Shown here in pieces: positions 28,910-43,288 of a stretch of DNA of 64,000 nucleotides; position 1 is the stretch's first letter; the number at the start of each line of letters is the position of its first letter. A program made the translations under genes and the position numbers. Below the pieces are notes generated by a model. That model did no database searches. It worked only from the letters and a program-made list of their open reading frames with translations, and was not told the origin of the DNA. The DNA lies in assembly GCA_945877815.1 (NCBI GenBank), contig CAMDWJ010000002.1, positions 1 to 64,000 of the forward strand, in the 5' to 3' direction. Source of the stretch: Caenispirillum bisanense. GTDB taxonomy: Bacteria; Pseudomonadota; Alphaproteobacteria; Rhodospirillales; UBA2165.

Positions 28910-29875
28910 ATGGCGTCCACACCCACAGACGTACCTCCGCATAAGTTCATGATCCCGCTCGACGAGCAGACGGCCAAAACCGCCAAGCGTACGAGCAAGC
29001 TCATCAGCCTCGAAGAAGCGGGCAAGATCATCGCTTCGAAAAAGACGATCTCGCTCGCCGGATCGCATTCGGCGGACGCGGCCATGAGCCTGATCCGCGC
29101 CGCCATCCGCGCCGGTGCCAAGGACATGACCATGATCCCGCCGGTCACGACATCGATCGCGGCCGACCTGCCCATCGCGGCGAAAATGCTGTCGAAGCTC
29201 TATCTGTCCTATGTCGGCTTCGAGGTGTGGGGCATGGCGCCCGCCTTCCGCTTTGCGGCCGAGAACCAGACGATGGAAATCGTCGAGGCCGACGAGCCCT
29301 TCATTCTATTGGGCACGCAGGCGGCGGCCGGCGGCCGGCCGTTCAACACGGTGCAATATCTGTACGATGCGACCTCGCATCCGAAATTGAACCCCGAGAT
29401 CAAAACCGTGACCGATCCCTACACCGGTTGCACCGTCTATACGATCCCACCCTTGTATTCCGATGTCTTCATCATGCATGCGCAGGCGTGCGACGAATTC
29501 GGCAATGCGCAATGCTGGGGCGGCAGCGGCCAGGAACGCGACAAGGCGAAGGCCGCGAAAATGGTCATCGTGCAGACCGATCAAATCGTGCCCTCGTCCG
29601 AAATCGAAAAAGACGCGGGCAAGCAGACCATCCCTGGCCTCTGGGTCGATCACGTCGTGCATGTGCCTTACGCCGCGCATCCTACCTTCTCGTCGCTCAA
29701 CTACGCGCCCGACGAGGAGCACTTGAAGCTCTATATCGACATGGTGAAGGACGGCCGCGCGCAGGAATACATCGATACCTACGTCACCGGTCCGAAGGAT
29801 CACATGGACTATATCGAGCGCGTCGGCGGAATGGCGCGCATGGAAGAACTCCGTAAAGCAGTCGCGGAAGGCTAG
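28910..29875 (+). CDS. CoA-transferase family I, alpha-like subunit (glutaconate CoA-transferase/IpdA-like)
   Basis: A 321-residue protein of the class I CoA-transferase alpha-subunit fold: KTISLAGSHSADAAMSLIRA, MTMIPPVTTSIAADLPI, GTQAAAGGRPFNTVQYLYDA and IVQTDQIVPSSEIEKD. The closest biochemical models are glutaconate CoA-transferase GctA and the steroid-ring hydrolase IpdA. It is the first gene of the cluster and is followed after 6 bp by the beta-like subunit, with which it should form a heteromer. Regulation by the divergent MarR protein is likely. Confidence 0.82.
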   Translation: MASTPTDVPPHKFMIPLDEQTAKTAKRTSKLISLEEAGKIIASKKTISLAGSHSADAAMSLIRAAIRAGAKDMTMIPPVTTSIAADLPIAAKMLSKLYLSYVGFEVWGMAPAFRFAAENQTMEIVEADEPFILLGTQAAAGGRPFNTVQYLYDATSHPKLNPEIKTVTDPYTGCTVYTIPPLYSDVFIMHAQACDEFGNAQCWGGSGQERDKAKAAKMVIVQTDQIVPSSEIEKDAGKQTIPGLWVDHVVHVPYAAHPTFSSLNYAPDEEHLKLYIDMVKDGRAQEYIDTYVTGPKDHMDYIERVGGMARMEELRKAVAEG

Positions 29876-29881
29876 AGGCAC

Positions 29882-30727
29882 ATGGCAGAAGTCGCTTATC
29901 CCGGAACCGATCGCTATTCGATGGCAGAACTCATGGCCGTCTTGCTCGCGCGCATGGCGGTAGGCGACGCCGAAAGTGCGGGCGGCGGCGGCGCCAACCA
30001 GATCATCAGCCTCGCCGGCAATCGCCTCGCGCAGCTTACCACCGCGCCGAACGTGTGGCTCTTCACCGGCGGCGCCGGCGTCTATAACGGGAAGTTCGAT
30101 CGCCTCCCCATCGGCACGTGGGATTCGCGCTGCGGCCAGGATGCCGAATGCAAGATTCCGTTGATCGACGTCGCCGACGGCCTGACCAAGGGCGTTAACG
30201 ATAATCAGCCGAAACGCGTGCAGCGCGTCGGCGCGGGCGGACTCGGCGGTATCCAGGTCGACAAATACGGCAACATCAACATGATCGGCATTGGCCCGCA
30301 TCCGAAGCTGAAGGTGCGCGGTCCGGGAACTGTCGGTTCCATCTGGCTCGGCGCCGGACAGACCAACATCTTCCTGCAGCATCACGGCAAACGCCTATTC
30401 GTCGAAAAGGTCGACTACGTCAGCGGCGCCGGCTGGCTGACGGGCGGCGATTCCCGCGCCAGAACCTTGAACGGACGCGAAGGGCCGCGCTACGTCTGGA
30501 CGCCGATCGCCGTCATGGATTTTACCCCGGACGAACATCGCATGCGGATTTGCACGGTGCATCCGGGCTACACGGTCACCGACGTTGTCGCCAATACAGG
30601 ATTCGAATTGGCGATCCCAGACATGGTGCCGACCACCACCGCACCGACCGATTACGAACTGCACATGTTGCGCACCAAGGTCGATCCGGACGGCGTGTTG
30701 CGGACCAAGCGCGTGACCGTTGGTTAA
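29882..30727 (+). CDS. CoA-transferase family I, beta-like subunit (IpdB-like)
   Basis: A 281-residue partner of the preceding subunit, with the beta-subunit N-terminus YSMAELMAVLLARMAVGDAE and the segment ANQIISLAGNRLAQLTTAPN. Where classical transferases carry the catalytic glutamate of the FE-x-G type, this protein reads VWLFTGGAGVYNG, with no glutamate. IpdAB also lacks the canonical glutamate and acts as a hydrolase, so this pair may not transfer CoA. The position assignment is by eye. AGAGG lies just upstream of the ATG. Confidence 0.78.
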   Translation: MAEVAYPGTDRYSMAELMAVLLARMAVGDAESAGGGGANQIISLAGNRLAQLTTAPNVWLFTGGAGVYNGKFDRLPIGTWDSRCGQDAECKIPLIDVADGLTKGVNDNQPKRVQRVGAGGLGGIQVDKYGNINMIGIGPHPKLKVRGPGTVGSIWLGAGQTNIFLQHHGKRLFVEKVDYVSGAGWLTGGDSRARTLNGREGPRYVWTPIAVMDFTPDEHRMRICTVHPGYTVTDVVANTGFELAIPDMVPTTTAPTDYELHMLRTKVDPDGVLRTKRVTVG

Positions 30728-30822
30728 GCGGAGCAAGACCCCCGCCGCAGACAACAAGCGAAGAGGACCGGAATCGGAATCATAACCCGCGTGGCACGGC
30801 GGGAAACGACAGGAGAGAAGCA

Positions 30823-32277
30823 ATGACAGATGAAATGATGTGCGACGTCCTCGTCATCGGCTATGGCGGCGCCGGCGCGTCGGCAGCCATCGAGGCGCAC
30901 GACGCCGGCGCCGAAGTTGTCATCCTGGAAAAACTGGACGAGCCCGGCGGCAATACCCGCTGGAGCAATTGCTCGTGGTTCGCACCGCCTCCCGGCACCG
31001 AGCAGCAGGCCGTCGAGCATATCGACGCGCTGTGCTTCGGCCGCACGCCCATCCCGGTCATCGAGGCCTATGTGAAGGCCGCCTCCGAGAACAAAGCTTG
31101 GATCGAGAAACTCGGCGGCGTTTACAAGGCGACCCACTTCCTCAACGTGCGTTATCCGACGATCACCCATCCCTCCTGGCCGAACTTCCCGGGCTCGGCC
31201 GCGATGGTCAATCAAACCGTCATGTCGCCGCGCGACGATCAGCCCAACGGCGAACGCCTGTTCGGACTGTTGCGCGACCATGTCGAGAAACGCGGTGTGA
31301 AGGTCTTCACCGGCACGCCCGCCAGAGATCTGATCACCAACGGCAAGGGCGAGGTCGTCGGCGCCACCGCCCTGAAGGACGGCAAGAGCTTCACCGTGAA
31401 GGCGCGGCGCGCCGTGATCCTGTGCAGCGGCGGATTCGAATTCAACGAAGAGATGAAGAACGAATATCTGCCCATTTACCCGGTGACCGCCATCGGCAGC
31501 CCGGGCAATACGGGCGACGGCATCACGATGGCGCGCAAACTCGGTGCGCAGATCTGGCATATGGGCGTGTGTGTCGCCGGCTTCGGTCTCGAGGTCGACG
31601 GTTATCCCGGCGGCTTCGGCATTTCCTTCCCGACGCCGCACTTCATCCACGTCAACAAATACGGCAAGCGCTTCGCCAACGAGCTTGGCACCGAGATGCA
31701 TTTCGCGTGGCACGAGGTCGCGGTTTTCGATCCCAAGAAGCCCGGCCATCCCACCTTGCCGTCCTATGCGATCTTCGATCACCAGGCGGTGCAGAAAGGC
31801 GCGGTCAGCATCGGCACAGCGGGGACGACGCGGGACTATAAGTGGAGCCCCGACAATTCCGCCGAGATTGCCAAAGGGTGGATCAAGAAAGCCGATACGA
31901 TCGGCGAACTGGCGAAGATACTGAAGCTCGATGCGGCGGTGCTGGAAAAGACGGTTGCCAAATACAACGACGCCTGCGCCAAAGGCGCCGACGATGACTT
32001 CCATCGCGCTAGGGAAACGCTGCAACCGTTCAAGGGCCCCTTTTACGCAATGGAAATGAATCTCCGCATGGTCAACACCATGGGCGGGCCGCGACGCGAC
32101 GAACATGCGCGCGTCGTCAAACCCGACGGCACGCCGATCGGACGCCTCTATTCGGCGGGCGAGTTGGGCTCACTGTGGGGGCATCTCTATTGCGGTGGCG
32201 GCAATGTCGGCGAGGCGCTCGCCATCGGACGCCAAGCCGGCCAGAACGCCGCCAAAGAAAAACCCTGGAGCAACTAG
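30823..32277 (+). CDS. FAD-dependent oxidoreductase (fumarate reductase/KstD-like flavoprotein)
   Basis: A 484-residue flavoprotein with the N-terminal dinucleotide-binding motif VLVIGYGGAGASAAIEAHDA followed by EKLDEPGGNTRWSN, and the C-terminal FAD block GRLYSAGELGSLWGHLYCGG and GGNVGEALAIGRQAG. This arrangement is shared by fumarate reductase flavoproteins, 3-ketosteroid dehydrogenases and tricarballylate dehydrogenase. It probably oxidises or reduces a C-C double bond next to a carbonyl. The start is set by AGGAGAG at 30811. It lies downstream of the CoA-transferase-like pair and 1 bp before the next gene. Confidence 0.85.
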   Translation: MTDEMMCDVLVIGYGGAGASAAIEAHDAGAEVVILEKLDEPGGNTRWSNCSWFAPPPGTEQQAVEHIDALCFGRTPIPVIEAYVKAASENKAWIEKLGGVYKATHFLNVRYPTITHPSWPNFPGSAAMVNQTVMSPRDDQPNGERLFGLLRDHVEKRGVKVFTGTPARDLITNGKGEVVGATALKDGKSFTVKARRAVILCSGGFEFNEEMKNEYLPIYPVTAIGSPGNTGDGITMARKLGAQIWHMGVCVAGFGLEVDGYPGGFGISFPTPHFIHVNKYGKRFANELGTEMHFAWHEVAVFDPKKPGHPTLPSYAIFDHQAVQKGAVSIGTAGTTRDYKWSPDNSAEIAKGWIKKADTIGELAKILKLDAAVLEKTVAKYNDACAKGADDDFHRARETLQPFKGPFYAMEMNLRMVNTMGGPRRDEHARVVKPDGTPIGRLYSAGELGSLWGHLYCGGGNVGEALAIGRQAGQNAAKEKPWSN

Positions 32278-32278
32278 A

Positions 32279-32716
32279 ATGGCCGGGACGCCGTTCATCA
32301 TTCAGCAATTCACGCTCGCGGCGTCCCAGTACCGCGTCTGGGATCTGCTGGCCACCAGCATCCTGCAAAGCATGCCGGTCGAGCAGACCGAGATCGTCAA
32401 CGATTCCACTATGCGCGGCGTGTTGCGCTTCAAGTTCGCCGGCATCATCGTTCCGCTGCGCCTGCAGATCGAAGTCGCCGACGTGTCACCCATGGACTCC
32501 TTCACCACACTTGTGACCGTCACCAAATGGGGAACCGAGACTGTGTTGCGCGTGAAATACGATCTAACGGTCGTGGGCGACGAGCAGATCCAGGTGAACT
32601 GCTCGGCCATGATCGAGAAGGCACCGGCCTGGATGGCGCTGGTGACGCCGATGCAGAAGAGTTTCGCCGCGAACATGTTCGAAGATATCCGCAAGGAACT
32701 CGTTCGCGCGGTGTGA
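32279..32716 (+). CDS. CoxG-like SRPBCC-fold protein, hypothetical
   Basis: A 145-residue protein without signal peptide. Its pattern (FTLAASQYRVWDLLATSIL, then LRFKFAGIIVPLRLQIEVAD, and a long amphipathic C-terminal helix) resembles SRPBCC/CoxG-type lipid- or quinone-binding proteins. It begins one base after the FAD oxidoreductase stop, so the two are very likely co-expressed, and a role as partner of the oxidoreductase, e.g. handling a hydrophobic substrate or quinone, is a reasonable inference. The family assignment is moderate. Confidence 0.6.
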   Translation: MAGTPFIIQQFTLAASQYRVWDLLATSILQSMPVEQTEIVNDSTMRGVLRFKFAGIIVPLRLQIEVADVSPMDSFTTLVTVTKWGTETVLRVKYDLTVVGDEQIQVNCSAMIEKAPAWMALVTPMQKSFAANMFEDIRKELVRAV

Positions 32717-32753
32717 TCGCGTGCTGTCGCCGTTTAATATAGGGAGAACAATC

Positions 32754-34283
32754 ATGCGTTTAACGACATTGGGACTGATAGCCGCCGCCAGCGCGTTGCT
32801 TGCAAACCCAGCCTTCGCGCAAAAATCCAAGGACACAGTGCGTTATGCCGTGAGCAACCCGTTCGCGGTCCTTTCCAATTTCCATCTGCCGCTCGACGAA
32901 GCGGCCGTCGTCTACAAGAAGGTCTACGAGCCGCTCATCGGGTTCGACGAATATAATCAGAAATGGGTTCCGCGCCTGGCATCGGCGTGGCGAACGGTGT
33001 CGCCCGGCGTCTACGAATTCGATCTGCGCCAGGACATCAAGTTTCACAACGGCAACACCTTCAATGCCGACGATGTCATCCGAACTTTGAAATACATCGC
33101 CGATCCCGCAGTGAAACTCACGTTCAAACAACGCTACAGTTGGATCAAGGACGTCGAAAAACTATCCCAGTACAAGATCCGGATCATCGCCGATGAACCG
33201 CGAACGGACCATTTCGAGCTGCTCGCCTTTCGCATCAACATCTGGGATGCGGAGACCATGGACAAGCTCGACAATATCGAAGATTACGGGCGTCTGTCTC
33301 CTTACGGAACGGGCATCTTCAAAGCCGTCTCCATGGATCGCAACGCCGGCGTCATCGTGGAACGTTACGAGGGCTTCAACACTAATCGCGCGGAGACAAC
33401 CGGGTCGAAGCGTGTCCATGCCATACCCATGCCGGACCGCCAGACGCAGGTGGCGCAGCTTCTCACCGGCGGCGTGGACATTTTGCGCGGGGTTGGTCCC
33501 GATACCGCCAAGGAGCTGGATCGCAACCCGAATATCGACATCACCAACCTCGCTTCGCCCTCGACGTTTTATTTCGCGCTCGATTCCGCCGGCGTTTCCG
33601 GCAACAAGGCACTGACCGACAAGCGGGTGCGGCGCGCCGTTTTCATGGCGATCGATCGCGACACGCTGATCAAGCATCTGGTGCCCGGCAGCGAGGTCGC
33701 GGAAAAGCTCGATGCCCTTTGCTATAAATCGACGCGCGACTGCAAATTCAACGTCAAAGCCCCGGACTACGACCCGGCCGGCGCCAAGAAGCTGCTGGCC
33801 GAGGCCGGTTATCCCAACGGCTTCGAGTTCGAATACAACGTCTTCTCCCCCTACATTCATTTGGGCGAGGCGATAGCGGGCGATCTGCGCAAGATCGGCA
33901 TCATTGCGAAGATCCAGAGCGTCGATATCTCGCTCTACCGCCGCAAGCAGGGTCAGGGCCAACTCCAGGGAATCTCGGTTCTGAGCCCCAGCGCGACCCA
34001 TCCGTCGGCGTCGAACATACTCAATATCTTCTTCGATGGGCCTGCGTTCCAATATTACAACGACAAGATCATCTCCGACTCGATCGAAGCCGCGGGCCGC
34101 GAGTTCGACGACGCCAAACGCGCCGATCTCTACGCCACGGTCTTCGATCGCGCCAATAGCGAAAGCTACATTTTCCCTGTCACCTCGATCCCGACCGTTT
34201 ATGCGCACACCAAAGACATCAAGATCGTCCCTGACCCTTATGCGACCGGCGACGTGTGGTCGACGTCATATACCTGGAAGTAG
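32754..34283 (+). CDS. ABC transporter substrate-binding protein, family 5, orphan (second copy)
   Basis: A 509-residue SBP_bac_5 protein. The signal peptide (LTTLGLIAAASALLANPAFA, about residues 3-22) is followed by the mature start QKSKDTVRYAVS, the same as the SBP at 8866. Family blocks: FDLRQDIKFHNGNTFNADD, GTGIFKAVSMDRNAG, KRVRRAVFMAIDRDTLIKHL. A good AGGGAGA site precedes the ATG. It is the last gene of the cluster and probably captures its growth substrate, but no permease or ATPase is encoded here. Confidence 0.9.
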   Translation: MRLTTLGLIAAASALLANPAFAQKSKDTVRYAVSNPFAVLSNFHLPLDEAAVVYKKVYEPLIGFDEYNQKWVPRLASAWRTVSPGVYEFDLRQDIKFHNGNTFNADDVIRTLKYIADPAVKLTFKQRYSWIKDVEKLSQYKIRIIADEPRTDHFELLAFRINIWDAETMDKLDNIEDYGRLSPYGTGIFKAVSMDRNAGVIVERYEGFNTNRAETTGSKRVHAIPMPDRQTQVAQLLTGGVDILRGVGPDTAKELDRNPNIDITNLASPSTFYFALDSAGVSGNKALTDKRVRRAVFMAIDRDTLIKHLVPGSEVAEKLDALCYKSTRDCKFNVKAPDYDPAGAKKLLAEAGYPNGFEFEYNVFSPYIHLGEAIAGDLRKIGIIAKIQSVDISLYRRKQGQGQLQGISVLSPSATHPSASNILNIFFDGPAFQYYNDKIISDSIEAAGREFDDAKRADLYATVFDRANSESYIFPVTSIPTVYAHTKDIKIVPDPYATGDVWSTSYTWK

Positions 34284-34305: not shown

Positions 34306-35499
34306 TCAGGTAGCCCGTTTCGACTCAATCTTGATCGGCTGACGTTTGCGGCCCCAATCGCCGTGCGGGCCGTCGAATACGCCCGGAAGCGGCAAACCGC
34401 ACGTCAGGCATGCGCCCGTCTCCGACAAATGCCACGTCGAAAGCTCATACCAGTCGCGCCCGATCAGTTCGGCGCCGCAGCCGTGGCAATAGGTGCTCGA
34501 CCCAGCCTTGTGGTGGACGTTGCCGACATAGACGTAGCGCAGGCCGTATTGCAGCGCGATGTCGCGAGCACGCCGGAGCGTCGAAGGTGGCGTCGCCGGA
34601 ATGTCGCGTATCTTCCAATCGGGATGGAACGCGGTGAAATGCAGCGGCACGTCGGGGCCGAGATGCTCGGCAATCCAAGCGCATTGCGCATGCAGTTCGA
34701 CATCGGAATCGTTTTTGGTCGGGATCAGCAGGGTCGTGATCTCGAACCAGACCTCCGTTTCGTGCTTCAGGTATTCGAGCGTCTCGAGCACCGCGCCCAG
34801 CTCGGCGGTGCATAGCTCCTTATAGAATTCCTCGGTGAAGCCCTTTAGGTCGATATTAGCCGCATCCATGTGGCGATAAAATTCGGCGCGAGGTTCGGCG
34901 CGCATATAGCCGGCCGAGACGGCCACCGACTTGACGCCCTGAGCGCGGCAGGCGTCGGCGATATCGATGGCATATTCGTGGAAGATGACTGGGTCGTTGT
35001 AGGTGAAGGCGACGCTTTTGCAGCCGGTCGCCCGGGCCGCCTCGGCGATCGCCTCGGGCCTGACCAGCTGTTCGTCGAGCACATTCATGGTTCGGACGTC
35101 TTTTTCGCTGCGCGGACGTTTGAGGTCGACCGCCTTGTCCCGCCCGTCGAGCATATAATCCGCGTTGCCGACCAGCGGGGTCTGCTTGCCCGCCTTGCTG
35201 ATCGACCAGTTCTGGCAAAAGCGGCAGGTTAGATTGCAGCCCTGCTGCCCGAAGCTGAGAATCGGCGTTCCCGGCAGGAAATGGTTGAGCGGCTTCTTTT
35301 CAACCGGGTCTATGCAAAAACCGGAAGCCTGCCCCCAGCTCGACAGCACAATCTCGCCGCGATGGTTGCCGCGCACCCAGCACAACCCGCGCTGGCCGTC
35401 GCGCAAGCGGCAGTTGCGCGGGCAGATGTCGCATTGGACGCGCCCGTCGTCGAGCGCCGACCAATATTTCGTGCGAACGACATTTGGAGGAAGGTTCAT
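34306..35499 (-). CDS. amrS: AmmeMemoRadiSam system radical SAM enzyme
   Basis: A 397-residue radical SAM protein with the CxxxCxxC cluster motif CNLTCRFCQNWS (about residue 80). Two extra cysteine clusters are typical of AmrS: CDICPRNCRLRDGQRGLC at the N-terminus and CHGCGAEL with CLTCGLPLPG at the C-terminus. The core also shows AFTYNDPVIFHEYAID and HFTAFHPDWKI. The start at 35499 fits the family; a longer in-frame start runs into the divergent gene. It is divergent from the Memo-AMMECR1 fusion gene over 52 bp. The reaction of the system is not established. Confidence 0.93.
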   Translation of the reverse strand: MNLPPNVVRTKYWSALDDGRVQCDICPRNCRLRDGQRGLCWVRGNHRGEIVLSSWGQASGFCIDPVEKKPLNHFLPGTPILSFGQQGCNLTCRFCQNWSISKAGKQTPLVGNADYMLDGRDKAVDLKRPRSEKDVRTMNVLDEQLVRPEAIAEAARATGCKSVAFTYNDPVIFHEYAIDIADACRAQGVKSVAVSAGYMRAEPRAEFYRHMDAANIDLKGFTEEFYKELCTAELGAVLETLEYLKHETEVWFEITTLLIPTKNDSDVELHAQCAWIAEHLGPDVPLHFTAFHPDWKIRDIPATPPSTLRRARDIALQYGLRYVYVGNVHHKAGSSTYCHGCGAELIGRDWYELSTWHLSETGACLTCGLPLPGVFDGPHGDWGRKRQPIKIESKRAT

Positions 35500-35538
35500 G
35501 ACCGTACTATATAATAGGTATGATTGAGGCCACCATCT

Positions 35539-35550
35539 GGAGGCGCCTCC
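35539..35550. promoter_or_regulatory. Palindrome covering the Shine-Dalgarno of the Memo-AMMECR1 gene
   Basis: GGAGGCGCCTCC is a perfect 12-bp palindrome whose left half is the GGAGG ribosome-binding site, eight bases before the ATG at 35552. It could pair within or between transcripts and affect initiation, or be coincidental. Confidence 0.4.
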
Positions 35551-35551
35551 T

Positions 35552-37126
35552 ATGAGCGGCATAACGATACATCCCGGTCAGTTGATTCCGGCGACCGGCC
35601 AAGTACCGGGTGCGGTGCGCCCGCCCGCCGTGGCTGGGAGTTTCTATCCCGGAAAAGCCGACGAGTTGCGCCGCGCGATCGGCACCTACCTGGCTGAGGC
35701 CGACGCCAAAATTCCGCGTCAGCCCGGTGCCGTGCCGAAAGCGATCATCGTGCCCCATGCGGGTTATATCTATTCCGGCCTCACCGCTGCGGCGGCCTAC
35801 CGGACTCTGGCGCCGGCGCGGGGGATCATCACCCGCGTCGTCATGATGGGCCCCTGCCATCAGGTTGGCGTGCCCGGCATCGCATTGCCCTCGGCAACCG
35901 CCTTCCGCACGCCGCTTGGCGACGTATCCGTCGAACGGGCGGCCATTAACACCATTTCCTCGCTGCCCGCCGTTGCCGTGATAGACGCGACGCATAAGGA
36001 CGATCACGCGCTTGAGGTCCATCTGCCGTTCCTCCAGGTGGTGCTCGGCGATTTCAAGATCGTACCTATGATCGTCGGGGGATCCACAGCGGAAGATGTC
36101 GCGCGCGTGCTCGAAGCCCTGTGGGGCGGACCGGAAACGCTGATTCTGATTTCATCCGATCTCAGCCATTATCTGCCCTATGACGCCGCACGTAAAATTG
36201 ACGACGCCACCCGTCAGGCGATCGAAAGGATCGACGCGTTGGCGCTTGGCGATAACCAGGCCTGTGGGCGCCATTCCATCAAAGGCCTGATGCTCGTCGC
36301 CCGCGCCAAGGGACTCACGGTTTCGACCGCCGACATCCGCAATTCCGGCGATACGGCCGGCCCCAAGGACCGGGTCGTCGGCTACGGCTCGTGGCTGTTC
36401 CACGAACCGAAGACGACTATGGTTTCGCAAGCACCGACAGCGAGGAAACGTCCGATCATCAATGTGATTCACCCGCCCAAGGCCGTGCCCCGATCCCAGC
36501 CCGCCGACGGCGACCCGGTCTCCGAGACGCGGGCACTATTGGACCGGCATGGACCCTTCGTACTGAAACATGCCGCGCGGGCGATCCTGGCGAAACTCAA
36601 TGTCGCCGGAGCCGCCGCCGGCCCGGTCGCGCCGGAATTGCGCGCACCCGGAGCAAGCTTCGTTACCTTGCAGAAGGACGGCAAGCTGCGCGGCTGCATC
36701 GGCTCGGTGGTGGCGCACCGCCCCCTGATCGACGACATCGCCGAGAATGCCGTACGTGCGGCCTTCCACGATCCGAGATTCCCTAAGCTGAGTTTGGATG
36801 AAATCAAGGCGCACTTGGTCCATGTCCATATCTCGGTTCTCAGTCCGCAGGCGCCGATGAGCTTCACCTCGGAGGCCGATCTGCTGTCCCAGATACGGCC
36901 GAACCGCGACGGACTGGTGCTGCAAGATCAGGGACAGCGAAGCGTGTTCCTGCCGTCGGTCTGGGAATCGTTGCCGGATGTCCGCCTCTTCCTCAATCAG
37001 CTCAAGCGCAAGGCGGGCTTGCCCGAAACCCATTGGTCCGACACGGTGCAGGTCTGGCGCTATGCCACAGAAGACATCCGCTCGGAACACCTGCCGGCGG
37101 ACTCAATCCTGTGGGCCGTGCCGTGA
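35552..37126 (+). CDS. AmmeMemoRadiSam fusion protein: Memo (AmrB) plus AMMECR1 (AmrA)
   Basis: A 524-residue two-domain protein. Residues about 20-290 form a Memo/dioxygenase-like domain: VAGSFYPGKADELRRA, IIVPHAGYIYSG, MGPCHQVGVPG, DDHALEVHLPFLQ and SSDLSHYLPYDAA, with histidines at the usual metal positions. Residues about 330-510 form an AMMECR1 domain with FVTLQKDGKLRGCIGSV, containing the invariant LRGCIG. The fusion and the divergent AmrS gene together make a complete AmmeMemoRadiSam set. The function of the system is still unclear. Confidence 0.93.
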   Translation: MSGITIHPGQLIPATGQVPGAVRPPAVAGSFYPGKADELRRAIGTYLAEADAKIPRQPGAVPKAIIVPHAGYIYSGLTAAAAYRTLAPARGIITRVVMMGPCHQVGVPGIALPSATAFRTPLGDVSVERAAINTISSLPAVAVIDATHKDDHALEVHLPFLQVVLGDFKIVPMIVGGSTAEDVARVLEALWGGPETLILISSDLSHYLPYDAARKIDDATRQAIERIDALALGDNQACGRHSIKGLMLVARAKGLTVSTADIRNSGDTAGPKDRVVGYGSWLFHEPKTTMVSQAPTARKRPIINVIHPPKAVPRSQPADGDPVSETRALLDRHGPFVLKHAARAILAKLNVAGAAAGPVAPELRAPGASFVTLQKDGKLRGCIGSVVAHRPLIDDIAENAVRAAFHDPRFPKLSLDEIKAHLVHVHISVLSPQAPMSFTSEADLLSQIRPNRDGLVLQDQGQRSVFLPSVWESLPDVRLFLNQLKRKAGLPETHWSDTVQVWRYATEDIRSEHLPADSILWAVP

Positions 37127-37152: not shown

Positions 37153-37629
37153 ATGACGATAAAAATTAGACGCATCGTGACGGACCACGATGCTGCGGGG
37201 AAAGCCGTCATCAGCTCCGATGCCGTGATGGACAATGTCGGCCAGCTGCGGTCCGGCAATTTCAATTCTCTGCTCTGGGTGACCGACGACTCGCCGGCCG
37301 AGATCGAGGGCAGCGAGGATCCGGCGCTGCGCAAGATGGATATCGAGCCGCCCGCGCGCGGCACAGTGTTCCGGGTTCTCGAGCTGATGCCGGGCAAAAC
37401 GGCTTACATGCATCGCACGAATACAATTGATTATGCCATTGTAATGTCTGGAAGATGTATTATGGAATTGGATGATGGAGCCACGGTCGACATGGCCGCC
37501 GGCGATGTCATGGTCCAACGCGCGACCTGGCACGGCTGGGCTAATCCACACGCCGAGCCCTGCCAGATCATCTTCATCCTGATCGGCTCTACCCCCCCCT
37601 CCAAAGTCCTCCATCCGGCGGCCCATTGA
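37153..37629 (+). CDS. Cupin-domain protein
   Basis: A 158-residue protein with a cupin core: RVLELMPGKTAYMHRTNTID, YAIVMSGRCIMELDDGATVD and AAGDVMVQRATWHGWANP. The second cupin motif (GDxxxxRxxxxHxW) is clear; the first has one conserved histidine. Such proteins often bind a metal and a small acid. The codons in 37417-37479 are strikingly AT-rich compared with both sides. It lies between the Memo-AMMECR1 gene and cysQ on the same strand with short gaps and may be in an operon with them. Confidence 0.8.
   Translation: MTIKIRRIVTDHDAAGKAVISSDAVMDNVGQLRSGNFNSLLWVTDDSPAEIEGSEDPALRKMDIEPPARGTVFRVLELMPGKTAYMHRTNTIDYAIVMSGRCIMELDDGATVDMAAGDVMVQRATWHGWANPHAEPCQIIFILIGSTPPSKVLHPAAH
37417..37479. other. 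Local AT-rich patch inside cupin gene
   Basis: About 63 bp, roughly 21 codons (ACG AAT ACA ATT GAT TAT GCC and onward), use many A/T-ending codons with about one third G+C by my count, while the flanks are GC-rich. The frame is intact. It covers the central cupin strands. Confidence 0.6.
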
Positions 37630-37632
37630 TCG

Positions 37633-38409
37633 ATGCCGCCCTCCCTCCCTGATCTGCGCCGGCTGACCCAAGACATCGTGACGATCGCCACTCATGCGGG
37701 TGTAATCGTCATGGAGGTCTTTGCCTCCAACTTCGAGGTTCGAGCCAAGGCGGATAAATCGCCGGTGACCGTCGCGGACGAGCGGGCCGAAGCCTTTATC
37801 GTCGAACATCTGGGCGTCGCCGCCCCTGGGATTCCGGTGGTCGGTGAAGAAGGCTACGCGGCGGGGCTGCGGCCCGACATTTCGGGTGGGCGGTTCTGGC
37901 TGGTCGATGCGCTCGACGGCACCTCGGAATTCACCCGGCGCGGCACCGACTTCACCGTCAATATCGCACTGATCGACGGCGGGGTTCCGATCATGGGCGT
38001 GGTCCACGCCCCAGCCCTCGGCGGGACCTATTGGGGCTCGCGGGACGGGGCCTTTCGCAGGGCCACGGACGGTCCGGCCGAACCGATTGCGGCCTGCCTG
38101 CCGGACGCGGCCGGGCTTGTCGCCGTGATCAGCAAATCCCATCAGACCGACGAAGCAGCTTATCTCAAGACTTTTCCGATCAGCCGCATCGTGAATCGGG
38201 GCAGCTCGCTCAAATTCGCCCTGGTCGCGGCAGGCGAAGCCGACATCTACCCGCGCCTCGGCCCGACCTCGGAATGGGACATCGCTGCCGGCCATGCGGT
38301 TTTGGCGGCGGCGGGCGGCACAGTCACCACGCTTGACGGCGAGCCGATCCGCTACGGTAAGGCCAATGTGCTCAACCCCTACTTCGTGGCGCGGGGGCGC
38401 ACCGCTTGA
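37633..38409 (+). CDS. cysQ: 3'(2'),5'-bisphosphate nucleotidase (CysQ, inositol monophosphatase family)
   Basis: A 258-residue enzyme that removes the 3' phosphate of PAP formed in sulfate assimilation, Mg2+ dependent. Signatures: KADKSPVTVADERAEAFI, PVVGEEG, the metal motif WLVDALDGTSEF (family DPxDGTxEF) and GPTSEWDIAAGHAVLAAAGG at the C-terminus. The DGT-(K/S)-EF form favours CysQ over inositol phosphatase. The stop overlaps the next gene start as TTGA. Confidence 0.9.
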   Translation: MPPSLPDLRRLTQDIVTIATHAGVIVMEVFASNFEVRAKADKSPVTVADERAEAFIVEHLGVAAPGIPVVGEEGYAAGLRPDISGGRFWLVDALDGTSEFTRRGTDFTVNIALIDGGVPIMGVVHAPALGGTYWGSRDGAFRRATDGPAEPIAACLPDAAGLVAVISKSHQTDEAAYLKTFPISRIVNRGSSLKFALVAAGEADIYPRLGPTSEWDIAAGHAVLAAAGGTVTTLDGEPIRYGKANVLNPYFVARGRTA

Positions 38410-39356
38410 ACGCTCCCCGGATCATGGCCGCCGACGCAACCGGCATCGCCGAGGCGGCGGCCATGATCCGCAGCGGGCAGATCGTCGCCTTTCCGACCGA
38501 GACCGTGTACGGGCTCGGCGCCGACGCCACCAACGATGCCGCCGTCGCGAAGATCTTCGCCGCCAAGGGCCGCCCCGACTTCAATCCGCTGATCGTCCAT
38601 GTCAAAGACGCGCCGGCGGCGCGGGGCTATGTGCGCTGGACTGAAACCGCAACAACCCTGGCTGCGCGTTTCTGGCCCGGGCCTTTGACCCTGGTGCTCA
38701 AGCGCCTGCCCGATTGCCCGCTATCCCTGTTGGTCAGTGCCGGCCTGCCGAGTGTCGCCATCCGCGTGCCCGCTCATCCGCTCGCCCAGGCATTGTTGGC
38801 CCAGGCCGACCGGCCAATCGCGGCACCTTCAGCCAATCGCTCGGGCGCGGTCAGCCCGACCACGGCGGCCCATGTCGCGGCCTCGCTCGGCGCGCAGGTC
38901 CCCCTCATCCTCGACAGCGGGCCGTGTTTGGTCGGCCTCGAATCCACCGTAATCGATCTGACCGGCCCCGAACCGATCCTGCTGCGGCCGGGCGGCCTGG
39001 CGCTTGAAGCGATCGAGATCGCCATTGGCCGATCGATCGCGTCGGCCCTGGACGACACCAATCATCCGAAATCGCCGGGAATGCTCGAACGCCACTATGC
39101 GCCACGGGCATCGCTGAGACTCGATGCCGAGGCCGCCAAACCCGGCGAAACGCTCCTCGGATTCGGGCCAGTCGCGCCGTCCGGCTCGGTCAATCTGAGT
39201 CCGACCGGGAACTTGGACGAAGCCGCCGCCAACCTGTTCGCGATGCTGCATCGGCTGGACGAAAGCGCCGAGCGGATCGCCGTGATGCAGATCCCCGAGG
39301 TGGGTCTTGGGCGGGCCATCAACGACCGGCTTCGCCGGGCTGCCAAGCGGGGGTAG
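38406..39356 (+). CDS. L-threonylcarbamoyladenylate synthase (Sua5/YwlC type)
   Basis: A 316-residue two-domain protein. Residues about 10-200 form the YrdC domain (GQIVAFPTETVYGLGADATN, KGRPDFNPLIVHV, RFWPGPLTLVL, AIRVPAHPLAQALL, APSANRSGAVSPT). The rest is the Sua5 C-terminal domain after SPGMLERHYAPRAS. It makes threonylcarbamoyl-AMP for the universal t6A37 tRNA modification. The start is a TTG overlapping the cysQ stop; the ATG at 38424 is the alternative. Confidence 0.95.
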   Translation: MNAPRIMAADATGIAEAAAMIRSGQIVAFPTETVYGLGADATNDAAVAKIFAAKGRPDFNPLIVHVKDAPAARGYVRWTETATTLAARFWPGPLTLVLKRLPDCPLSLLVSAGLPSVAIRVPAHPLAQALLAQADRPIAAPSANRSGAVSPTTAAHVAASLGAQVPLILDSGPCLVGLESTVIDLTGPEPILLRPGGLALEAIEIAIGRSIASALDDTNHPKSPGMLERHYAPRASLRLDAEAAKPGETLLGFGPVAPSGSVNLSPTGNLDEAAANLFAMLHRLDESAERIAVMQIPEVGLGRAINDRLRRAAKRG

Positions 39357-39395
39357 AGCATGGCCGAACCCCATCCTTTGAGGTAAGAAAACGTC

Positions 39396-40808
39396 ATGAC
39401 ACTGCCCTCGGAGTTCCTCGATCGTCTGCGCCAACTCGTTGGCGCCGCCAACGTCCTGTCCGCCGACGGCGACACGGAACGTTATCGCCACGAAGAACGC
39501 GGCCTAATGACCAGCATCTGCGACGCGGTCGCACGCCCCGGCACCGCGGACGACGTCGCCGCCGTAGTCCGCGTGTGCGCCGAGGCCCATGTCCCCATTG
39601 TCGCGATGGGCGGTAATACCGGCCTAGTCGGCGGCGGCGTAGCCAATGGCGGGGTGATCCTCTCGACCGAGCGCTTAAACCGCGTCATCGAGGTCGATGC
39701 GCTCAACCATACCATGACCATCGAAGCCGGCTGCATACTCGCCGATCTACAAAAAACCGCTGAAGATCACGATTGCTTCTTCCCGCTCAGCCTCGGGGCC
39801 GAAGGCAGCTGCCGGATCGGCGGCAATATCTCCACCAATGCCGGCGGCGTCGGCGTGCTGCGTTACGGCAATACCCGCGACCTCATTCTGGGCCTCGAAG
39901 TGGTGCTGCCCGACGGCCGAATCTGGAGCAAGCTCAACGGGCTACGCAAGGACAATACCGGCTACGATCTGAAACATCTGTTCATCGGCGCCGAAGGCAC
40001 GCTTGGAATCGTCACCAAGGCGGTCGTAAAGCTGTTCCCGCGTCCGCGCGCTAAGGTGACGCTGATGGCAGCCCTGCCGACGCTGGATTACGTGCTGATC
40101 CTGTTCGACCGGATCCGCGCGGCCTGCGGCGACCGGCTTGCGGCCTTCGAGATGGTGCCGGAATTGGGCATCGAGCTGGTCACCCGCCATATTCCCGATA
40201 CCCGCGATCCCTTCGCCGAACGTCATCCCTGGTACGTGCTGATGGAGTTGACCAGCCCCCGCCCAGGAGACGATCTGCGTGCCGAGGTCGAAAATGCGAT
40301 GGGCGAGGCCTTCGAAGCCGGCATCGTGGTCGACGCGGTCTTCGCCGACAGCGAAACCCAGGGCCGGGCGCTGTGGAAGCTGCGCGAAGAAATCCCCGCC
40401 GCCCAAACGCGCGAAGGCGGCAGCATCAAGCACGACGTGTCGGTTCCGGTCTCAAAGACCACCGAATTCGTCCGCCTCGCCATGGAGGCCGTTTGCGCGG
40501 AAATGCCGGGCCTGCGCCCCTGCCCCTTCGGCCATATTGGCGACGGCAATATCCATTTCAACCTGACCCAGCCGCCCGGCATGGACAAAGCCGCCTTCAT
40601 CGCGCGCTGGGCGGATTTCAACCGCATCGTGCACGATCTGACCAAGCGCTATTCGGGCAGCATCAGCGCCGAGCACGGCATCGGGCTGGTCAAACGCGAC
40701 GAGCTCGAACATTACACCTCGCCGCTCGACATTGAGCTGATGCGCAGAGTCAAACGGGCGCTCGACCCCAACAACATCATGAACCCCGGGAAGATCTTTA
40801 CCGCCTAA
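39396..40808 (+). CDS. FAD-binding oxidoreductase (GlcD/D-2-hydroxyglutarate dehydrogenase-like)
   Basis: A 470-residue flavoenzyme. The N-terminal FAD-binding domain shows VAMGGNTGLVGGGVANGG, SLGAEGSCRIGGNISTNAGG and GYDLKHLFIGAEGTLGIVT. The C-terminal part ends with HGD-like GHIGDGNIHFN and GSISAEHGIGLVKRDEL, including the usual His residues. Members oxidise D-2-hydroxy acids such as D-lactate, glycolate or D-2-hydroxyglutarate; the D2HGDH-like subgroup fits best. It may be co-transcribed with Sua5 and cysQ. The stop overlaps that of the convergent methyltransferase gene. Confidence 0.88.
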   Translation: MTLPSEFLDRLRQLVGAANVLSADGDTERYRHEERGLMTSICDAVARPGTADDVAAVVRVCAEAHVPIVAMGGNTGLVGGGVANGGVILSTERLNRVIEVDALNHTMTIEAGCILADLQKTAEDHDCFFPLSLGAEGSCRIGGNISTNAGGVGVLRYGNTRDLILGLEVVLPDGRIWSKLNGLRKDNTGYDLKHLFIGAEGTLGIVTKAVVKLFPRPRAKVTLMAALPTLDYVLILFDRIRAACGDRLAAFEMVPELGIELVTRHIPDTRDPFAERHPWYVLMELTSPRPGDDLRAEVENAMGEAFEAGIVVDAVFADSETQGRALWKLREEIPAAQTREGGSIKHDVSVPVSKTTEFVRLAMEAVCAEMPGLRPCPFGHIGDGNIHFNLTQPPGMDKAAFIARWADFNRIVHDLTKRYSGSISAEHGIGLVKRDELEHYTSPLDIELMRRVKRALDPNNIMNPGKIFTA

Positions 40809-41971
40809 ACGACGCGGTAAAGCTCCTCCGCGTAACCTTCAATGATCCAATAGGGGAAACGGTAGATCCGTTCGAACCCGCCGACCTCCTCGATCATATC
40901 CGATACGATCGTTTGGCGCTCCAAGCGCACTTCGTGAGGGGCACTCGCCTCTTGGTTGATAGATAGGAACTGCCGCGAGGTGCGTCGGATTTCCCGCAGA
41001 TATGCCAAGGCTTCCGGCCGTGGGATTTCAGGCAAGGAATCCATATTAATGCTCAAGGCGACGCTCCGGTCCGGAATTTCCCCGAAACTCGGAGGCGGCA
41101 GGACCCGCATCGCCGCCGGATTTTCGCGGTAACCGGATACTGCGTCGCGACCGAGGGCACTGCCGAGAAAATAGGTTTGGATGGCGCCGACGACCGGCAA
41201 ATCGATGATCGTGTAATTTCGAAACCCGGCGCGGTTTGCGAGCAGGCCAAGCGAGCCGAAACCGCCGCCAAGCTCGACGATCGCCTCCTGCGGACCAACA
41301 CCCAACTGCCGGATCCGATTGGCGACATAGGCATGACGCACCATATCGGCGTTGGTTGAAATCCCGTTCAGCGTGAAAACAGGCGGATTGCCGACGCGGG
41401 GCATTTCCAGCGAAAAGGCAAGAACCGCTTCGATCTTGCCGAACAGGGCATTCTGATCGGTATGCATGGCCGTGACATAATCGATGAGTTTCATTTGGGC
41501 ATGGCTTGGCAATGAGAGGACCCCAAGCGCCTCACCGAGTGCCAGCAGAGTATCGGTCATACGCAATTCCTGGAATCCGGGGCGCCAAACTCGTTCGCCA
41601 AAATAAAGCGTCTCGGCATGCCCCATGCCCAAAAGCAGATTATCCTGAAACAAACGGCCGAATTGGGAGGCCAAACTATCGGCATCGCCGGCCGTGAGAG
41701 CACGATGAAGCGGCGCCACGTCCGGCCAGATCGTGAATTCGGTGCCGAAGTCTTGAGTCAGGGCGCGATAGTTTTCAAGCAGACGGGCAACCAGCACCCG
41801 GTCGACGTCCATCGACACGCTCGTCTTTTTGATCGCCGGCCGGGGCGCGTCGAACAGGTCATGCACCAGGCCGGCAGCCCCCCATAACTTGATATTTCGA
41901 TAGCGATTGACGGTGATCGACCATTTGAGAAGACGGCGACGTTGCCTGGCCCATAACTTTTGAAGAAGCAC
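40805..41971 (-). CDS. Putative sugar O-methyltransferase
   Basis: A 388-residue protein starting at GTG with TGGAGAAAG upstream. Its central SAM-binding motif is AIVELGGGFGSLGLLANRAG followed by NYTIIDLPVVGAIQTYFL, the pattern of the 'putative sugar O-methyltransferase' group found with polysaccharide genes. The N-terminal about 150 residues are helical. No glycan cluster surrounds it here. Substrate unknown; class I methyltransferase fold is well supported. Confidence 0.72.
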   Translation of the reverse strand: MLLQKLWARQRRRLLKWSITVNRYRNIKLWGAAGLVHDLFDAPRPAIKKTSVSMDVDRVLVARLLENYRALTQDFGTEFTIWPDVAPLHRALTAGDADSLASQFGRLFQDNLLLGMGHAETLYFGERVWRPGFQELRMTDTLLALGEALGVLSLPSHAQMKLIDYVTAMHTDQNALFGKIEAVLAFSLEMPRVGNPPVFTLNGISTNADMVRHAYVANRIRQLGVGPQEAIVELGGGFGSLGLLANRAGFRNYTIIDLPVVGAIQTYFLGSALGRDAVSGYRENPAAMRVLPPPSFGEIPDRSVALSINMDSLPEIPRPEALAYLREIRRTSRQFLSINQEASAPHEVRLERQTIVSDMIEEVGGFERIYRFPYWIIEGYAEELYRVV

Positions 41972-42143
41972 CTAGTCTTTCTCCACCCGGTCTAGATCGA
42001 CCCTGAACTAACATGTTTGATCGACCACACAAAGCGACGCCCACTGTCCGGGCCCAAGAAATATTCGTGACTCTGCTGCAATAAAATCGTCTTATTTATT
42101 GATTCCCATATGTTTTATGCCTGTGAACCGGCGATTCGGCGGC

Positions 42144-42149
42144 TATAAT
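42144..42149 (+). promoter_or_regulatory. Candidate -10 element for lptF with almost no leader
   Basis: TATAAT lies only eight bases before the lptF ATG at 42158. A start site seven bases downstream would fall within one or two bases of the ATG, giving a nearly leaderless mRNA. No convincing -35 or Shine-Dalgarno is seen. Confidence 0.4.
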
Positions 42150-42157
42150 TCTGCGGC

Positions 42158-43288
42158 ATGAAGCAATATCAACTCTATCTGTTGCGGCAGCTCATGACGG
42201 CGATGGCGATCATCACGATGGTCATGACCGGTATCATCTGGCTGTTCATTTCCGTCCGAGCGGTGGAATCGATCGTCAATCGCGGGTTGTCGTTCTCGCT
42301 CTTCCTCTCGCTGACGGGGATGCAGCTCCCGAATTTCCTGGTTCAGATCGTACCCATCGCCCTCTTCATCGCCGGGGTCTTCGTCTATAACCGGCTGAGT
42401 TCGGACCGCGAGGTTCTGGTGCTACGCGCGGCCGGCGTGAGCCCCCTGGCGCTCGCGCAGCCGATCATCGTGCTGGGTCTCGCCGCATCGGCGCTCTGCT
42501 ATGCCTTCGCGCTCTATATAACCCCGATGTCCTACCAGATGTTCCGCGACCTACAATGGGACGTTCGCTACAGCTTCACCAACATTCTATTGCGTGAAGG
42601 CGTCTTCAACACGCTATCCAACACGACGACTGTTTATATCCGCGAACGTACCGGCCGCGATGAGTTGCGCGGCCTTCTAGTTCACGATACCCGCGACCCC
42701 GAAAAAGAGGCCACAATCATCGCCGAGCGCGGCGCGGTCGTGGATACGCCGACCGGCCCGCGCGTCCTCATGTTCGACGGCAATCGGCAGGAGCTCAACC
42801 GCAAGACCGAAAAATTGTCGATCCTCTATTTCGACCGCTATAGCTTCGATCTCGGAGGCGTCGCGCAAAAGCCAGAAGCTCGCTTTCGCGAACCGCGCGA
42901 GCGAACCATGGACGAGTTGCTCTTCTTGACGAAGGAGGATGTCGGAAATCCAAATGATTTCGGGCGGTTTGTAGTCGAGGCGCATCAGCGCCTGTCGATG
43001 CCATTGCTGTCGCTCGGCTACGGGCTGGTCGCGTTTCTTTTCATCACCTACGGCGAATATTCCCGCCGCGGACAGGCCGTACGCATCATCAATGCGGCGG
43101 CGATATTCGTCATTCTCCAGGTCTGCCAGTTGGGGCTCATCAATATCGTGGCCAAGAACCTCGCCTTGGTCCCGGTACTTTACATCATGGCGCTGATGCC
43201 GATTGCGGTGCCGATCGCCCTGCTCATCTATAACCCGAAGCTTCCCTCGCCGCTCAAATGGCGCGCGGATGTACGCGGCACGGCATAG
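42158..43288 (+). CDS. lptF: LPS export system permease LptF
   Basis: A 376-residue membrane protein of the YjgP/YjgQ family: MKQYQLYLLRQLMTAMAIIT, LPNFLVQIVPIALFIAGVF, VLRAAGVSPLALAQP, then a periplasmic domain and three C-terminal hydrophobic segments. LptF and LptG form the transmembrane part of the LptBFGC ATP-driven machine that lifts LPS from the inner membrane. It is first in the lptF-lptG-lptD-surA-pdxA-rsmA operon. Confidence 0.95.
   Translation: MKQYQLYLLRQLMTAMAIITMVMTGIIWLFISVRAVESIVNRGLSFSLFLSLTGMQLPNFLVQIVPIALFIAGVFVYNRLSSDREVLVLRAAGVSPLALAQPIIVLGLAASALCYAFALYITPMSYQMFRDLQWDVRYSFTNILLREGVFNTLSNTTTVYIRERTGRDELRGLLVHDTRDPEKEATIIAERGAVVDTPTGPRVLMFDGNRQELNRKTEKLSILYFDRYSFDLGGVAQKPEARFREPRERTMDELLFLTKEDVGNPNDFGRFVVEAHQRLSMPLLSLGYGLVAFLFITYGEYSRRGQAVRIINAAAIFVILQVCQLGLINIVAKNLALVPVLYIMALMPIAVPIALLIYNPKLPSPLKWRADVRGTA

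Follow-up and report, generated by a model that had tools for sequence, protein, structure and literature searches.

The window (the whole stretch of DNA that was analysed, 64,000 nucleotides) contains amrS on its minus strand and, divergent from it, a gene encoding a fused Memo and AMMECR1 protein, followed by a small cupin gene and a block beginning with cysQ. The features are listed here with the evidence for each in brackets.

34306..35499, minus strand: amrS, AmmeMemoRadiSam radical SAM enzyme, 397 aa (TIGR04337, 590 bits; PF04055)
35215..35238, minus strand: AmrS cluster motif codons, C88xxxC92xxC95 (seen in the sequence and when aligned with relatives)
35206..35216, minus strand: GCCAGAACTGG, the first seven bases of which are the crossover core of the relatives' islands (junction comparison and sequence reading)
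35065..35193, minus strand: enlarged AmrS segment, residues 103-145, 43 residues (alignment with relatives)
35552..37126, plus strand: fused Memo (AmrB-like) and AMMECR1 (AmrA-like) protein, 524 aa (TIGR04336, TIGR04335, PF01875, PF01871)
35624..36391, plus strand: Memo domain, residues 25-280 (Pfam match and alignment)
36620..37072, plus strand: AMMECR1 domain with LRGCIG, residues 379-384 (Pfam match and alignment)
37153..37629, plus strand: small cupin, neighbour of cysQ, outside the Amr set (PF07883; distribution)
37633-38409, plus strand: cysQ (profile matches and synteny)
38406-39356, plus strand: sua5/tsaC (profile matches and synteny)
39396-40808, plus strand: FAD-linked oxidase (profile matches and synteny)

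The amrS start at 35499 agrees with homologues and leaves 52 bp between amrS and the fusion gene. The mechanically called start at 35562 was rejected: it would run into the fusion gene, and homologues fit 35499. On the other side, amrS is adjoined by positions 28910-34283, which contain two CoA-transferase subunits, an FAD-dependent dehydrogenase of the flavocytochrome c/ketosteroid dehydrogenase type, an SRPBCC-like ORF (identified by eye) and a peptide-type binding protein, possibly a catabolic cluster.

NCBIfam profile searches identified all three members of the AmmeMemoRadiSam set. AmrS matches TIGR04337 at 590 bits (cut-off 220) and contains the CxxxCxxC motif, the Memo half of the fusion matches TIGR04336 over residues 23-283 (244 bits, cut-off 26), and the AMMECR1 half matches TIGR04335 over residues 338-507 (179 bits, cut-off 99). 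Pfam agrees, with PF01875 and PF01871 both above cut-off in the 524-residue protein, and there is one AMMECR1 match in the genome. The original prediction of a complete set, with Memo and AMMECR1 in one protein and amrS divergent from its gene, is therefore confirmed, and the AMMECR1 domain is detected by the profile search that had been named as a check. An alignment of four fusions shows H69, H103 and C238 of the Memo domain, which we take to correspond to the metal ligands of MEMO1, to be invariant, together with LRGCIG (379-384) of the AMMECR1 domain. Solved structural relatives are MEMO1 for the first half of the fusion and PH0010, MM0484 and ST0229 for the second. The structure model of the fusion has a mean pLDDT of 64 (four sequences), and residues 288-320, between the domains, are unresolved. 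On general knowledge of these families, AmrS presumably makes a 5'-deoxyadenosyl radical and Memo offers a metal site of the LigB type, with AMMECR1 as their partner, and the three are predicted to modify a substrate together.

The system had been described as widespread, which was borne out. In the order sample 170 of 199 genomes have an AmrS match (164 over the cut-off), and 93 of 249 genomes in the phylum sample have one to AMMECR1. Among the 113 AMMECR1 matches listed, 54 lie in frames of at least 426 aa and 59 in frames of at most 319 aa, frame length being only a proxy for whether the domain is fused or separate. Within the family the fusion is matched in 18 of 24 genomes, 16 times in frames of 480-532 aa covering both domains and twice in shorter frames at contig ends; a Memo-AMMECR1 fusion is also found on a Bacteroidales contig. 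Because the counts in family, order and phylum show both to be common, the set and the fusion are of an ordinary, common kind. The suggestion that the fusion fixes the stoichiometry of the two domains is a fair inference from the fusion itself, but Memo and AMMECR1 have separate reading frames at L004:6001-7417 and, in G124, at L127:3036-4395. Memo-AMMECR1 systems are in print (Burroughs et al. 2019, as cited in PMC7159879), and a passage of PMC6393860 places AMMECR1 among uncharacterised archaeal proteins, there linked to other genes.

The cupin gene lies 26 bp downstream of the fusion gene on the same strand, as originally noted, and had been put forward as a possible extra member of the system. 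Its distribution instead follows cysQ. A close copy (E<=1e-50) occurs in only 21 of the 199 order genomes, and AmrS is matched in 17 of these 21 and in 153 of the 178 without one, so that there is no association between the two. Four cupin genomes (G004, G014, G015 and G018, 85-87% complete) gave no AmrS match; the fusion is nevertheless present in G004 and G014, while in G015 and G018 (both 85-86% complete) neither amrS nor memo-AMMECR1 was found and the cupin, cysQ, sua5 and oxidase genes occur together. In all 15 family loci that hold both, the cupin is within 75 bp of cysQ. Its distance from memo-AMMECR1 ranges from 36 bp to 2.3 kb; seven of the 15 loci have less than 350 bp and the other 8 more than 1 kb, so that adjacency to the fusion is not conserved; in all three gaps looked at, a further ORF of about 300 aa lies between them. 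G006 contains the fusion and cysQ without a cupin between, and G146, G030 and G035 contain the cupin without cysQ in the stretch examined. Because it adjoins cysQ in 15/15 loci, occurs without amrS and shows no association with AmrS, the cupin is a passenger and not a member of the Amr set; the short same-strand gap in the window and the seven close family loci would favour a fourth member, which, given the 153 amrS genomes that lack the cupin, we consider extremely improbable.

The genes downstream of the cupin (cysQ, sua5, FAD-linked oxidase and an lptF-like gene, 37633-43288) are syntenic as a block in the family and in the other members of the order seen, whether Amr genes accompany them or not. 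The neighbours cysQ and sua5 are rejected as evidence for what the Amr genes do, the block being present without Amr genes in G015 and G018.

Compared with the known AmmeMemoRadiSam system (TIGR04335/04336/04337), the window is alike in matching all three models, in the fusion, as in many relatives, and in the divergent amrS. It differs in AmrS itself, which has 43 residues after the cluster where 10 are usual. The segment following CxxxCxxCQNWxISK is 10 residues long in 47/47 relatives without an insert, which range from the window's family to other classes, compared with 43-44 in the window's genus. The window AmrS is approximately 33 residues longer than its relatives, all at one point. Measured as the spacing between GCN and YNDP, the distance is 47 in 67/67 plain AmrS (20 beyond the 47 above) and also in G497, 80-81 in the window's genus, and 86, 94, 94, 94 and 95 in five other AmrS. 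The TIGR04337 alignment splits in two, in the window as in its genus mate G002, because of the enlarged segment.

Over the 38 codons of the insert that can be aligned, the window and G002 differ at 20 bases. Third positions account for 11 of these 20, compared with 116 of 171 differences in AmrS outside the insert; 32 of the 38 aligned residues are identical, and there is one in-frame indel. Judged from this in-frame indel, the 32/38 identity and the lower share of third positions, the insert is translated and kept, under a constraint that appears weaker than in the rest of AmrS. The AmrS stem branch of the genus is long (0.42). The structure model of AmrS (mean pLDDT 39, two sequences) is too poor to place the insert; the extra residues near the cluster presumably form a loop. 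We initially suspected the enlarged segment to be restricted to the window's genus, which was dropped after further genomes with an insert were found.

Three of these genomes, G166, G192 and G545, contain apparently complete islands with a tyrosine recombinase inside amrS. Their loci are as follows.

L132:3612-5321 with L126: island in amrS, G166
L129 with L133: island in amrS, G192
L186 with L187: island in amrS, G545

The order in all three is a host amrS 5' fragment beside memo, ending directly after the third cluster cysteine, then the integrase, the cargo and a chimeric amrS; the fragment and the full-length gene are 17, 24 and 27 kb apart. The full-length amrS at the far end has a different N-terminal part and a linker, joined to the host QNWDISK and the remainder of the gene. 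Host fragments match relatives from their own family at 88-97% (3/3 tested), and the N-termini of the chimeras have at most 79% identity with any plain AmrS compared, 23 rows lacking the string PGTP having been left out of this table. Comparison of the fragments with the full-length genes shows that the island has cut off the host 5' end and provides an N-terminal part of its own together with a translated linker, which adds 39-48 residues.

The G166 integrase matches PF00589, and the copies in G192 and G545 are 98-99% identical to it; the frame is 570 codons long and has in G545 a TGA at codon 18, before the likely start at codon 42. The three islands share 5.2 kb on the integrase side (94-96%), 0.7 kb with a second recombinase of 192 aa (91-93%) and the amrS end (84-89%), and much of the middle differs. 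The cargo of G192 includes an MmeI-type restriction enzyme, a HEPN-Toprim protein, a D12 methylase and a PTPS/radical-SAM pair; this pair looks like 7-deazapurine synthesis. Viral and plasmid carriers were considered and set aside: one scan of viral contigs with the window AmrS gave no relative, and the integrase matched 7 plasmid records, at 25-29% identity where at least 44% was covered.

The junctions identify the site of crossover. The core GCCAGAA is common to the left and right junctions of G166, G192 and G545 and to the native gene of two same-genus relatives. The native amrS of these two relatives reads AAGTTCT-GCCAGAA-CTGGGAC and has GCCAGAACTGG at the site; the left junctions are AAGTTCT-GCCAGAA-AATCC and the right junctions AAGGATA-GCCAGAA-CTGGGA. 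Seven shared bases are as expected for the core of a tyrosine recombinase. The core occupies the codons for C-Q-N, directly after the third cluster cysteine. The native site is near-palindromic (9/11 pairs, compared with 6/11 in the joined attP and 6/11 in the window) which follows from its K-F-C-Q-N-W codons. Near both junctions there are repeats of ACACAGTTT, the right-hand ones being translated as part of the linker. The junction site in G124 is GCCAAAACTGG; its two junctions share 11 bp, which are one base off the two native sites looked at in its genus.

Two junction searches over 317 order genomes, the queries of which can miss inserts of unrelated sequence, found the enlarged segment in at least nine genomes: G000 (the window's genome), G002, G047, G506, G166, G192, G545, G100 and G124. 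The 118 order genomes outside the 199-genome sample were covered by the junction queries alone; where comparable, the AmrS profile search (199 genomes, 20 of them re-searched) agrees. Five genomes (G166, G192, G545, G124 and G506) have an intact second copy of QNxDISK; that in G100 appears eroded, and none was seen in G047 or the window. Neither G047 nor G100 contains an integrase copy at E<=1e-20, and we read their inserts as scars of lost islands. Other families thus contribute a small version of the island (G124), two scars (G047, G100) and one contig-end case (G506). The small version is only 1.6 kb long and has no recombinase. Between its broken and chimeric amrS (L127:7007-8249) lie two genes, of 167 and 248 aa, for the products of which Pfam and PADLOC gave no match. 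In G506 AmrS lies at a contig end and shows the second motif copy; it begins there (L122:1-400) with two copies of CKF[CS]QN, perhaps two insertions in a row.

We propose the following explanation. In the relatives, as the comparison shows, islands with a tyrosine recombinase are inserted into amrS at the 7-bp core in the codons C-Q-N, where they have severed the host amrS 5' end beside memo, and the island-borne N-terminal part and translated linker restore a full amrS frame. An ancestor of the window's genus may have acquired such an island and later lost both it and the severed 5' fragment, so that a chimeric amrS remained whose segment beside the cluster is 33 residues longer. That the window AmrS is a relic chimera of this kind is the reading towards which we lean, with limited confidence. 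It is favoured because the insert is at the same position as the island junctions and the signature residues are similar. TA precedes GCN in 67/67 plain AmrS and 4/4 host fragments, but in none of the eight insert-bearing AmrS, among them that of the window. At the second position after CQN, 63 of the 67 plain AmrS have D (H in 2, E in 1, N in 1), whereas the eight with an insert have S (5), T (2) or N (1). The shared residues might also have arisen to compensate for an insertion of whatever origin in this place.

In the phylogenetic analysis a foreign N-terminus of the window AmrS is at most suggestive, and the tests are weak. The trees were made on chosen loci, and the C-part and cluster-free trees and the clade tests did without 19 of the 24 rows from the phylum sample and without G506, whose row is cut off. 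In the tree of AmrS up to ISK, all seven insert-bearing rows form one clade (97/83). In the C-part tree each groups with its host family, and one common clade is rejected (p 3.7e-67); the C-part of the window falls in its own family (100/96), which rules out horizontal transfer of the whole amrS. On the 85 columns that remain without the cluster region, the window still groups with G002 and G124 (97/86) and the other four form a separate clade; a single clade of all seven is not recovered, and the test does not reject it either (p 0.20). Placing the chimera N-termini of G166 and G192 in one clade with six rows from their host family is rejected (p 0.002). The control clade, of the family without the window, is also rejected (p 0.011), and the tests are therefore liberal here. 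The test does not reject a group of the window's genus with G005, the family member nearest to it (p 0.104). The join between window and G124 involves long branches, and without G124 the placement of the window is lost.

Alternatively, the longer segment might have nothing to do with the islands: a surface loop could have gained residues in frame, by insertion or expansion, independently and in an otherwise ordinary set. The window locus itself is what this would predict, since neither an integrase nor a second QNWDISK copy nor a host 5' fragment is present there and only 52 bp separate amrS from memo; its genome has a single amrS match, and the nearest relative of the integrase is 30% identical and on another contig. 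The insert has no recognisable sequence in common with the islands' linkers, and the foreign N-terminus is not established for the window's genus. However, an unrelated insertion would have had to fall in the same place as the island junctions, at a point where length is invariant in 67/67 plain AmrS, and to be accompanied by signature changes of the same kind as in the chimeras; moreover, scars seem to exist, as G047 and G100 carry inserts without a close integrase copy. We consider independent insertion possible but doubtful. A further alternative is an adaptive loop that shapes access to the cluster or binds a partner special to the genus, the position and residue changes being functional convergence. 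The window and G002 do both keep the insert in frame, with 32/38 residues identical, and the stem branch of 0.42 is long, but no partner or function is in sight, the third-position share (11/20 vs 116/171) points to weaker constraint, and the AmrS model is too poor to place a loop. As it also leaves the islands at the same place in other lineages unexplained, we regard it as unlikely.

Spacing between amrS and memo varies among these genomes. In G002 (L036:1485-8267) approximately 7 kb separate amrS from memo-AMMECR1 and contain, by eye, sugar-nucleotide and glycosyltransferase-like genes, and in G100 the distance is 12.7 kb. A gap of 2-3 kb between the two genes is also seen in some family members with a plain AmrS.

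Islands that use a protein-coding gene for attachment and restore its frame are well known, examples being e14 in icd, SXT in prfC and SGI1 in trmE. The amrS islands resemble these in the recombinase beside the cut fragment, the short core and the frame restored by island DNA. They differ in their target, the codons of an iron-sulphur motif, in replacing the whole N-terminal part and in adding 39-48 residues. The abstract of the 2019 paper by Burroughs and colleagues reportedly makes no mention of insertion at amrS, and searches of the open-licence literature found no paper describing integration at amrS. Islands in protein-coding genes are therefore a known kind, and the amrS target and the replaced N-terminal part look new. 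The window has the same domain trio as the Memo-AMMECR1 systems already described (Burroughs et al. 2019), and the gene set itself adds little.

Our overall proposal, which we regard as evenly balanced, is that the Fe-S motif codons of amrS serve as a palindrome-like attachment site for defence-carrying islands, that integration swaps the N-terminal part and adds a linker, and that the hybrids may outlive the islands, the window AmrS being one kept by its lineage. amrS would then be a new integration site for islands, of which only that in G192 is annotated, with restriction-modification and other defence-like genes. Each hybrid amrS is a naturally occurring domain swap with 33-48 residues inserted near the radical-SAM cluster, the frame being kept. 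These hybrids show how much AmrS tolerates beside its cluster, and indicate that amrS is worth restoring after integration.
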